Shown: piece by piece, positions 41,961 through 45,717 of the stretch
How the letters are laid out: the number at the start of each line of letters is the position of its first letter
Position numbering within the stretch: position 1 is the stretch's first letter
Assembly: GCF_900102425.1 (NCBI RefSeq)
Contig: NZ_FNBT01000004.1
Coordinates: 248,001-312,000, forward strand
From: Blastococcus aurantiacus
GTDB lineage: Bacteria; Actinomycetota; Actinomycetes; Mycobacteriales; Geodermatophilaceae
Direction: 5' to 3'
Length of the DNA: 64,000 nt
Position numbers and translations under genes: made by a program
The notes under the pieces: model-generated
What the model was told of the DNA's origin: nothing
The model's database searches: none
What the model saw: the letters and a program-made list of their open reading frames with translations, nothing else

Positions 41961-42683
41961 ATGCCCTCGCAGTACGGACAGTTCTGCCCGGTGGCCAAGG
42001 CCATGGAGCTGCTCGACGAGCGGTGGACGCTGCTCGTCGTCCGGGAGCTGATGCTCGGCAGCCGGCACTTCAACGCCCTGCGCCGCGGGGTGCCGCGGAT
42101 GTCGCCCGCATTGCTGTCCAAGCGGCTGCAGACGCTGGCGAAGGCCGGCGTGGTCGAGCGGTGGCAGGAGGGCAACCGGGTCAGCTACCGGCTCACCGAG
42201 GCCGGCCGTGAGCTGGAGCCGATCGTGGAAGCCGTGGGCCGGTGGGGCGTCCGATGGATCCCCGAGCTCGGTGACGAGGACCTCGACCCGCACCTGCTGC
42301 TGTGGGACATGCACCGCAACGTCGACACCGAGGCGGTACCCGACGGGCGGACGGTCATCGCGTTCGTCTTCCCGGAGCTGGATCCGACGACCCGGCGTTG
42401 GTGGATCGTCGTCACCGCCGACGGGGTCGACGTCTGCGACGTCGACCCGGGCTGCCCGCCCCGCGTCACCGTGGAGTCGAGCCTGCGCACCCTCACCCGG
42501 CTGTGGCGCGGCGACCTCGACTGGGCCGGCGTGCTCCGCTCCGGGGAGATCGTGCTGCACGGCGAGCCGCAGGCCCGCCGGGCGCTGCCGCGCTGGCTCC
42601 CGCTGACCGGTCTGGCCGGCACGCCACGGCCGCGGCGGGAGGCGCCCGTGCCGGTCGGACCCGGTGCCGGCCCTCCGGAGTAG
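41961..42683 (+). CDS. HxlR family transcriptional regulator
   Basis: This is a 240-residue protein. Residues 1-100 are an HxlR winged helix: GQFCPVAKAMELLDERWTLL, VVRELMLGSRHFNALRRGVP, then SPALLSKRLQTLAKAGVVER and VSYRLTEAGRELEPIVEAVG. The C-terminal half (about 130-220) looks like an SCP2/sterol-carrier-like ligand domain (VTVESSLRTLTRLWRGDLDW), an architecture known in actinobacterial HxlR proteins. It probably controls the divergent methyltransferase and itself. ATG 41961 follows GAGGGGAG at 41951-41958. Confidence 0.9.
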   Translation: MPSQYGQFCPVAKAMELLDERWTLLVVRELMLGSRHFNALRRGVPRMSPALLSKRLQTLAKAGVVERWQEGNRVSYRLTEAGRELEPIVEAVGRWGVRWIPELGDEDLDPHLLLWDMHRNVDTEAVPDGRTVIAFVFPELDPTTRRWWIVVTADGVDVCDVDPGCPPRVTVESSLRTLTRLWRGDLDWAGVLRSGEIVLHGEPQARRALPRWLPLTGLAGTPRPRREAPVPVGPGAGPPE

Positions 42684-42693
42684 CATTCACGGC

Positions 42694-42729
42694 GTGACCA
42701 GGCGGCTCCTGCTTGCCAGGCCGTGCTGA
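42694..42729 (+). CDS. Leucine leader peptide upstream of leuS
   Basis: GTG ACC AGG CGG CTC CTG CTT GCC AGG CCG TGC TGA encodes VTRRLLLARPC, with three consecutive leucine codons that use three different leucine codons. It starts 10 bases after the HxlR stop; a GGAG at 42677-42680 could serve as a distant Shine-Dalgarno. A hairpin and a U-tailed terminator follow directly, then leuS. This is the layout of a classical amino-acid attenuator. Confidence 0.7.
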   Translation: MTRRLLLARPC

Positions 42730-42780
42730 CCTCCAGACCTCCTGTCAGCACGGCGACCCCTCCTGCGTGAGGGGTTTTTT
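42720..42780 (+). terminator. leuS leader hairpins and attenuator terminator
   Basis: The first hairpin pairs 42720-42730 with 42744-42754 (11 base pairs, 13-base loop) and overlaps the end of the leader peptide. The second pairs 42756-42762 with 42769-42775 and is followed by a run of six T (42775-42780), a canonical intrinsic terminator rare in this GC-rich DNA. A ribosome stalled at the leucine codons would cover the 5' arm of the first hairpin. A candidate antiterminator pairs 42735-42741 with 42771-42777 (two G-U pairs); it is weak and unproven. Confidence 0.75.
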
Positions 42781-42819
42781 GATGTCCGCCGCCGGTACCA
42801 GTCCCCGGGAGCACGAACG

Positions 42820-45717
42820 ATGAGCCAGACGGCCGACCAGCCCAGCGTCGAGCACAGGGCGGGAGACGTACCCCCGCACCGCTACACGCCCGCGCTGGCC
42901 CAGCAGATCGAGCTCTCCTGGCAGGACCGCTGGGAGGCCGAGGGGACGTTCCACACGCCCAACCCGACCGGGCGGCTGAGCGAGGGCTTCGAGCGGGTCG
43001 CCGACCGGCCGAAGTTCTTCGCGATGGACATGTTCCCGTACCCCTCGGGCGCGGGGCTGCACGTCGGCCACCCGCTGGGCTACCTGGGCACCGACGTCAC
43101 CAGCCGCTTCCGCCGCATGGACGGCGACAACGTGCTGCACCCCATGGGCTACGACGCCTTCGGCCTGCCGGCGGAGCAGTTCGCCGTCCAGACCGGTCAG
43201 CACCCGCGGGTGACCACCGAGGCCAACATCGCCGCCATCAGCGCGCAGCTCCGGCGGCTGGGCGTCGACCACGACCAGCGCCGCACCTTCGCCACGATCG
43301 ACCCGGGCTACTACAAGTGGACCCAGTGGATCTTCCTGCAGATCTTCGGCTCCTGGTTCGACGAGGACGCGAACAAGGCCCGCCCCATCGAGGAGCTGGT
43401 CACCGAGCTGGACGCCGGCACCCGCGAGCCCGCCGCCGGCACCAACCCCTCGGGCCGGCCGTGGGCGGAGCTGGACGAGCGCGAGAAGAAGACCGTCGTC
43501 GACGCGCACCGGCTGGCCTACCTGAACGAGGCGCCGGTCAACTGGTGCCCGGGGCTGGGCACGGTGCTGTCCAACGAGGAGGTCACCGCCGACGGGCGCT
43601 CCGAGCGCGGCAACTTCCCCGTGTTCCGGCGTCCGCTCAAGCAGTGGATGATGCGGATCACCGCCTACGCCGACCGGCTGCTGGCCGACCTGGACAGGCT
43701 GGACTGGTCGGACTCGCTGAAGCTGATGCAGCGCAACTGGATCGGTCGCTCCACCGGCGCGAAGATCCGGTTCGCGTGTTCCTCCCGGGCGATCGAGGTC
43801 TTCACCACCCGGCCGGACACGCTGTTCGGGGCCACCTACATGGTCCTGGCACCGGAGCACCCGCTGGTCGGCGAGCTCACCGCGGACGCGTGGCCCGACG
43901 GCACCGACCCCCGCTGGACCGGCGGCGCGGCCACCCCGGCCGAGGCCGTGCGCGAGTACCAGCGGCAGGCCTCCCGGCGCTCGGAGCTGGACCGCCAGGA
44001 CGCCGGCCGCGAGAAGACCGGCGTCTGGCTGGGCGTCACCGCGGTCAACCCGGTCAACGACCGCGAGCTGCCGGTGTTCATCGCCGACTACGTGCTGACC
44101 GGCTACGGCACCGGCGCGATCATGGCGGTGCCGGGCGAGGACCAGCGCGACTGGGAGTTCGCCCATAGATTCGGCCTGGGCATCGTGCCCACGGTCGAGC
44201 GCCCCGAGGGCTTCGACGACGCGAGCGGCGCGTACACCGGCCCCGGCCGGATGATCAACTCCGCCAACGACGAGATCTCGCTGGACGGGCTGGACAAGGC
44301 CGCGGCGATCGCGAAGGTGACCGAGTGGCTGGTCGCCCACGGCGCCGGCGAGGCCACCACCACCTACAAGCTGCGCGACTGGCTGTTCAGCCGGCAGCGC
44401 TACTGGGGCGAGCCGTTCCCGATCGTCTACGACGAGGACGACCGCCCCGTCGCCGTCCCCACCTCGATGCTGCCGGTGCTGCTGCCGGAGGTCGACGACT
44501 ACTCGCCGAAGACCTTCGCCGACGACGACGCCGACTCCGCACCCGAGCCCCCGCTGTCGCGCGCGACCGAGTGGACGACGGTGGAGCTGGACCTGGGCGA
44601 CGGCCTGAAGAAGTACCGCCGCGAGACCAACACGATGCCCAACTGGGCCGGTTCGTGCTGGTACTACCTGCGCTACCTGGACCCGGGCGACGACGAGCGG
44701 ATGGTCGACCCCGAGCTGGAGGCCTACTGGATGGGTCCCCGCTCCGAGGGCGACACCGGTGGCGTGGACCTCTACGTCGGCGGCGTCGAGCACGCGGTGC
44801 TGCACCTGCTGTACGCCCGGTTCTGGCACAAGGTGCTGCACGACCTGGGCCACGTCTCCAGCGAGGAGCCGTTCCGCCGGCTGGTCAACCAGGGCTACAT
44901 CTCCGCCTACGCCTACACCGACGAGCGGGGCTTCTACGTGCCCGCCGCCGAGGTCGTGGAGAAGGACGGCCGGTTCCTGTTCGAGGGCAAGCCGGTCAAC
45001 CGCGAGTACGGGAAGATCGGCAAGAGCCTCAAGAACATGGTGACGCCGGACGAGATGATCGGCGCCTACGGGGCCGACACCTTCCGCGTGTACGAGATGT
45101 CGACCGGCCCGCTGGAGCAGTCGCGGCCCTGGGAGACCAAGGCCGTCGTCGGCTCGCAGCGGCTGCTGCAGCGCATCTGGCGCGTGGTGGTCGACGAGCA
45201 GACCGGTGCCGTGCGGGCGGCCGACGACGGCCGGCCCGCCGAGGCGACGCTGCGCGCCCTGCACCAGGCCATCGACGGCGTCCGCGACGGCTACACCACC
45301 CTGCGGTTCAACATCGCAATCGCCCGCATCACCGAGCTGACCAACCACCTGACCCAGGCGTACGGCGCGTCGTCGCCGGTGCCGCGGTCGGTGGTGGAGC
45401 CACTCGTGCTACTGGTCGCGCCGCTGGCCCCGCACCTGGCCGAGGAGCTGTGGGCCCGGCTCGGCGGCGAGGGCTCGGTGGCCTGGGCGCCCTTCCCGGT
45501 CGCCGACCCGCGCTGGCTGGTCGAGGACACGGTGCAGGTCGCGGTGCAGGTGAACGGGAAGGTGCGCTCCCAGGTGAGCGTGCCGGCCGACGCCGACGCC
45601 GCCGCGCTGGAAGCCGCGGCCCGCGCGGACGAGAAGATCGCCGCCTACCTCGACGGCGCGACGGTCCGCCGCGTCGTCGCCGTCCCCGGCCGGCTGGTCA
45701 ACTTCGTCCTCGGCTGA
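42820..45717 (+). CDS. leuS: Leucyl-tRNA synthetase
   Basis: LeuS charges tRNA-Leu. The 965-residue class I enzyme has the HIGH-type motif HVGH at residues 81-84 ([12 protein letters not shown]), the CP1 editing domain with [20 protein letters not shown] and [20 protein letters not shown], and KIGKS at 732-736 as its KMSKS motif, the form common in actinobacteria. The C-terminal part ends in [15 protein letters not shown]. An actinobacterial insertion is visible around residues 195-215. It is preceded by the leucine leader and attenuator, so expression should rise when charged tRNA-Leu is scarce. Confidence 0.97.

Follow-up and report, generated by a model that had tools for sequence, protein, structure and literature searches.

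In Blastococcus aurantiacus, the interval between an HxlR ORF and leuS, the gene for leucyl-tRNA synthetase, raises the question of whether expression of the synthetase is tied to the supply of charged Leu-tRNA and, if so, by what kind of switch. The window analyzed here is a stretch of 64,000 nucleotides from this genome. A first-pass annotation of its sequence had described an 11-residue leader with three Leu codons, an 11-bp hairpin and a six-T terminator between HxlR and leuS, and the sequence confirms all of these elements (Table 1). The upstream neighbor is an ORF with a Pfam HxlR domain, which ends at 42683 with its stop codon at 42681-42683.

Table 1. Features of the leuS leader region of B. 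aurantiacus (positions in the window)
Feature	Position	Strand	Remarks
Candidate -10 element TAGCAT	42681..42686	+	From sequence; 7 nt upstream of the leader GTG, overlaps the HxlR stop
Leader peptide ORF VTRRLLLARPC, probably leaderless	42694..42729	+	GTG at 42694, TGA at 42727-42729; 11 residues
Leu control codons CTC CTG CTT	42706..42714	+	CTT at 42712-42714 begins 8 nt upstream of P1
Hairpin P1, 11 bp, 13-nt loop	42720..42754	+	Arms GCCGTGCTGAC (42720-42730) and GTCAGCACGGC (42744-42754); leader stop codon inside the 5' arm
Intrinsic terminator T, 8-bp stem, no gap after P1	42755..42780	+	Stem arms GACCCCTC/GAGGGGTT within 42755-42776; six T at 42775-42780
leuS, leucyl-tRNA synthetase	42820..45717	+	Pfam LeuS editing domain and class I synthetase domains

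We consider it very probable that leuS is controlled by ribosome-mediated transcription attenuation at a leaderless leader, which ties leuS expression to the charging of Leu-tRNA. This explanation is favored because the anatomy of the region, its conservation, the covariation of its hairpins, its synteny with leuS and a strict codon rule all point to it. The predicted structure is unusually stable, as the fold of 42720-42780 gave a z of -6.03 with none of 200 shuffled sequences equally stable, and the entire leader (42694-42780) gave a z of -3.66. Two nested terminator-like sites were found in this region of the window, whereas 50 shuffles gave a mean of 0.0, so terminator T would not be expected by chance.

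The position of the TAGCAT box, 7 nt before the GTG, suggests that the leader mRNA is probably leaderless in Blastococcus. In all 107 leaders from the family Geodermatophilaceae, a TAnnnT box ended 6 nt (53 leaders) or 7 nt (54 leaders) upstream of the start that was chosen; for leaders from the wider order and class, the distance was 6-8 nt in 89 of 90. These counts are favored by a start choice in which codons having such a box were preferred; by the identical procedure, it was found in 0 of 8 non-leuS matches having an ORF. Additionally, the leuL2 leader of Streptomyces lividans is leaderless according to transcriptome data in passages of PMC8079986. A sigma-70 promoter with two hexamers was not found in 42500-43000, so that the promoter claim draws on the -10 box.

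By DNA search, the leader was present in 107 of 112 genomes of the family, and the five misses comprised four genomes at most 81% complete and one 94% complete. The leader ORF stood at the equivalent place in all 107 of these leaders, of which one was frameshifted (L056) and one carried LEL as its run (L094). The one-base shift in L056, from a genome of the same genus, falls within the Leu run and reflects either a sequencing error or a broken leader. LeuS was encoded downstream at 105 of these 107 loci, and the two exceptions were short stretches in which LeuS was not found. A motif TG[CT][CT][CT]G directly after the T run (42781-42789 in the window) was seen in 92 of 107 family leaders; its possible pairing with P1 was judged by eye and is not claimed.

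A covariance model built from 62 of the 107 family leaders extended this distribution, with a match in 129 of 200 order genomes, 28 of them from Geodermatophilaceae, and in 157 of the 394 genomes sampled from the class, leaving 237 of the latter without one; the order and class samples overlap in some genomes, and the search filters lose weak matches. One family label, f8, which we take to be the mycobacterial family, had no match, and all of the first 20 unmatched class genomes listed carried it. Counted by eye from the order and class lists, matches occurred under 36 family labels, and loci with LeuS, the window's family included, under 33 of the 36 (also by eye). LeuS was found downstream in 100 of the 110 order/class loci examined, a set in which 30 loci were returned by the searches and 80 chosen for diversity, with second matches included; at one of these, L170, it was recognized by a weak match only (E 9e-4 over 68 residues). 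The ten loci without LeuS were one at a contig end (L241), six before citramalate-synthase-like genes, one before an acetolactate synthase gene, and two others (L232 and L273), whose matches look like chance. The per-locus analyses used 100 of the 110 loci after ten near-duplicates were dropped, corresponding to 105 matches from which 5 short antisense ones were excluded; the 90 order/class leaders counted here exclude nine loci without LeuS and L254 (contig end) and include L241.

Searches of Rfam 15 with the whole window, the leader region and five relatives gave no match to the leader at the curated threshold, and the T-box covariance model had no match upstream of leuS, so the leader does not qualify as a T-box. 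The lone sub-threshold match in 42600-42900, to Chlorobi-1 on the opposite strand (E 0.2), was read as chance. The window also contains a bacterial RNase P class A RNA at 1115-1526.

The pairing of both hairpins is maintained by compensatory substitutions. The family alignment (A1), made from 62 of the 107 leaders by our own choice and not fitted to the P1/T structure, had double changes at 5 of 19 pairs, with 17 cells vs 2.4 in shuffles. For the order/class alignment (A2), which retained every one of its 105 rows and was fitted to the covariance model, double changes were found at 15 of 19 pairs (179 cells vs 29.3 in shuffles), and 96.6% of cells were paired vs 36-53% when slid. Seven of the 11 pairs of P1 and all 8 pairs of T were double-changed in the latter alignment, with 95.8% and 97.7% of cells paired, respectively. 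Because P1 and T covary, they are, as judged from these comparisons, real conserved structures. As drawn by the model, the gap between them was 0 nt in 76, 1 nt in 11 and 2-3 nt in 3 of the 90 order/class leaders. The first-pass annotation had proposed a leucine-codon attenuator before leuS, to be checked by conservation of the Leu run and hairpin covariation in relatives. Both were seen, in the 107 of 112 family genomes and in double changes above those of shuffles, and the proposal holds for the leader, Leu run, P1 and T alike. The conserved cognate codons and covarying hairpins seen here are features expected of ribosome-mediated attenuation.

The downstream proteins of the 100 loci fell into two types, A with 50 members (mean identity within the type 64%) and B with 30 (69%), with 42% identity between them; the split was made at 52% identity to the window LeuS, a cut of our own, and left 20 unassigned, including the nine non-LeuS loci and L241. 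The extremes of the types overlap, the lowest identity within A being 50% and the highest from A to B 54%. Both types carry one kind of leader, and genome G475 encodes both, each behind its own attenuator (L239 and L240). Because of these two observations, the module is, on the sequence comparison, tied to leuS as a function and not to one enzyme lineage.

The Leu run comprised 2-4 codons in 194 of the 197 leaders counted, two of which (L056 and L229) are out of frame. In the 195 in-frame leaders, which are related and hence do not represent independent events, the codon beginning 8 nt before P1 was CTT in 172 and CTC in 23, and CTG, CTA, TTG or TTA was never found there. The preference was seen both in the family (CTT 89, CTC 17 of 106) and in the order/class leaders (CTT 83, CTC 6 of 89). 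CTT is otherwise scarce: among 28 long ORFs of the window, chosen by composition, it made up 13 of 1193 Leu codons, in leuS 0 of 78, and in the LeuS-coding stretches of the 100 loci 13 of 1788. The B. aurantiacus genome, in which all 47 tRNA matches were examined, carries one tRNA-Leu gene each with the anticodons UAG, CAG, GAG, UAA and CAA. By the wobble rule, a GAG anticodon reads both CTT and CTC, and with a single tRNA-Leu(GAG) the two codons should therefore share this tRNA. Because the choice of CTT opposes genome composition, its preference over CTC suggests selection for slow or starvation-sensitive reading, as far as codon counts can indicate; there may also be an RNA-level reason for the third base of the fixed codon. 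According to passages of PMC1183508, E. coli leaders favor the codon most sensitive to limitation, and changing CUA to CUG lowered the sensitivity of the Salmonella typhimurium leu leader. The fixed CTT/CTC codon allows selective tRNA charging to be tested concretely in bacteria other than E. coli, and, as CTT is rare in GC-rich genomes, it is easily recognized and could aid the annotation of leuS leaders.

From the sequence we infer the start site, termination, the response to leucine and the disabling of T by the ribosome, and these would combine as follows. Transcription would start at the GTG, and a ribosome would at once translate the 11-codon leader. When charged Leu-tRNA is ample, the ribosome would reach the stop codon within P1 and depart, upon which P1 and T would fold and transcription would end at the six T residues. 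When charged Leu-tRNA is short, above all tRNA-Leu(GAG), the ribosome would pause on the Leu codons, its leading edge close to the base of P1, and RNA polymerase would continue into leuS. By usual ribosome footprint sizes, however, P1 could still fold while a ribosome is stalled at either of the first two Leu codons, which makes read-through the weak step of this mechanism. Also counting against this mechanism, codon changes in the ilvB and leuA leaders of S. coelicolor did not have the effect expected under classical attenuation, according to passages of PMC1262725.

The simplest alternative, that T is the ordinary terminator of HxlR followed by a chance ORF, has in its favor that T sits just after HxlR and ahead of leuS, but we regard it as highly improbable: all five elements (leader, -10 box, Leu run, P1 and T) stay together upstream of leuS under 33 family labels, P1 covaries, and with a -10 box at the HxlR stop the leader probably starts its own transcript. 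How a stalled ribosome would prevent T is a separate matter. In the classical three-state arrangement, blocking P1 would free its 3' arm (GCRCGG) to pair with the T loop (CUGNGY) as an antiterminator. Such a hairpin folds in L092, L169, L238 and L245 (-8.1 to -11.7 kcal/mol), an antiterminator is drawn for Streptomyces leuS in a figure of PMC1262725, and the three-hairpin model of Corynebacterium glutamicum ilvBNC is supported by mutation (passages of PMC11857589). However, T was more stable than the hairpin between the P1 3' arm and the T loop in every leader compared (107 from the family, 90 from the order and class), the window candidate reaching -4.4 vs -12.8 kcal/mol for T. The actual loops also showed no excess of pairing over permuted ones, with a mean Z of +0.10 in the family (7 of 19 distinct below 0) and +0.13 in the order/class leaders (38 of 88 below 0). 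Over 165 of the 195 leaders taken together, a base of P1 and the last base of the T loop were associated (Fisher p 2.9e-9); L033, L049 and L057 failed a sequence pattern, in this test only. This association appeared in the family (89/11/0/4, p 3.0e-4), where it is carried by 4 leaders, 3 of them from one genus, but it was absent outside the family (4/10/17/30, p 0.75) and therefore mostly reflects relatedness. The antiterminator pairing of the first-pass annotation, which had itself been rated weak there, fares poorly in these comparisons; being foldable at some loci and no better than permuted loops, it is not claimed, and we regard the three-state arrangement as a doubtful possibility.

A steric relay would do without an antiterminator. 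The folded P1 would bridge the stalled ribosome's leading edge and the base of T and so prevent T, whereas a ribosome advancing to the stop codon would melt P1 and T would then fold. The fixed spacing (all 195 in-frame leaders have a Leu codon starting 8 nt upstream of P1), the 0-nt spacing of P1 and T in 76 of 90 order/class leaders and the unsupported antiterminator favor such a relay, in which the footprint argument uses general ribosome sizes. On the other hand, T is stable enough to fold alone (-12.8 kcal/mol), the Leu run extends one codon nearer P1 in 31 of 197 leaders, and the short spacing may have other causes. We know of no precedent and consider the relay unlikely. Either the antiterminator is short-lived and beyond the sight of folding tests, or the stalled ribosome influences the adjoining T through P1. 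Since no antiterminator is supported, the switching step lends itself to direct testing. Two further candidates were considered and are not claimed. An RNA polymerase pause signal (G-10 and YG, the RNA ending 10 nt downstream of P1) fits 95 of 107 family leaders and only 25 of 90 order/class leaders, which is too poorly conserved; a pairing of the Leu codons with the leuS Shine-Dalgarno box has GGAG complementarity that is common by eye, yet expected for CTCC.

Returning to ribosome-mediated attenuation, the observations can tentatively be joined into one reading for much of the Actinomycetes, which as a whole is rather unlikely to hold in every part. A leaderless attenuator would sense a single isoacceptor, tRNA-Leu(GAG), rather than leucine as such, by way of a CUU/CUC codon required 8 nt upstream of P1. 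It would switch without a classical antiterminator, with ribosome, P1 and T as one stack; it would have accompanied two deeply diverged LeuS enzymes, by staying or by moving with them, and citramalate synthase would be controlled by a sister form with AUU codons.

The leu leader of Salmonella and E. coli has a Shine-Dalgarno sequence, unlike the probably leaderless leuS leader here. The closest known systems are the classical attenuators predicted for the leuS genes of S. avermitilis and S. coelicolor (Seliverstov et al. 2005, passages of PMC1262725) and leuL2 of S. lividans TK24, which was reported from RNA-seq in 2021 as a leaderless leader, MRAVRLLLSEPR, preceding leuS (passages of PMC8079986). 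The leader peptide of L274 is exactly the published S. lividans MRAVRLLLSEPR. The suggestion in the first-pass annotation that this may be an undescribed case therefore requires correction: since the Streptomyces leuS attenuator was predicted in 2005 and seen in 2021, the bacterium is new for a leuS attenuator, and the kind of switch is already known. As described in passages of those papers, the Streptomyces attenuator agrees with the present one in gene, three-Leu-codon leader, leaderless start (here probable), hairpin and terminator. Here, too, a short ORF with a Leu run lies directly before leuS, with a U-run terminator between leader and leuS. The window differs from Streptomyces-type loci in its leader, VTRRLLLARPC, and in a P1 loop shorter than in L238 and L274; additionally, the antiterminator drawn in 2005 is without support in the present loci.

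Other leucine-responsive leaders are less similar. Passages of PMC11857589 name CUU among the control codons of C. glutamicum ilvBNC and describe adjacent hairpins, as here, and a leader start one nucleotide away, which we liken to the leuS leader; in contrast, ilvBNC is a biosynthetic operon, and its mutation-tested antiterminator shares a trinucleotide with the terminator, which differs from leuS. Rare Leu codons also act as control codons in the Salmonella/E. coli leu attenuator (passages of PMC1183508), although the codon is CUA and not CUU, and the gene is not leuS. The LEU element of actinobacterial leuA likewise has a run of Leu codons in its leader, but, according to passages of PMC1262725, it forms a pseudoknot and pairs with the Shine-Dalgarno box of leuA instead of having a hairpin plus terminator. 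Literature searches, mostly without subscription journals, found among the matches listed no report of a leuS attenuator in Blastococcus or its family, of the class-wide spread and fixed CTT/CTC codon, of attachment to two LeuS types, or of an attenuator or Ile leader before citramalate synthase; in the main texts of PMC2965389 and PMC4046766, neither "leuS" nor "leucyl" occurs. Altogether, what was predicted for two species in 2005 emerges as an element that is widespread and has a defined anatomy; no Rfam 15 match to it was found.

Leaders of a similar layout were also seen before other genes. Six loci (L228, L259, L270, L271, L272 and L276) have a leader, P1 and terminator arranged alike, with Ile codons, before citramalate-synthase-like genes, and ATT was present in 6 of 6 of these leaders. 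The proteins of L271, L259 and L228 had TIGR00977 as their best NCBIfam match (E 1e-74 to 4e-81), the proteins being partial and the matches below the full-length cut-off, and L270, L272 and L276 were assigned by likeness among the look-alike loci. Finally, L268 carries the leader VRFSTLVLGRRVG, a P1-like hairpin and a terminator before the gene for an acetolactate synthase large subunit.
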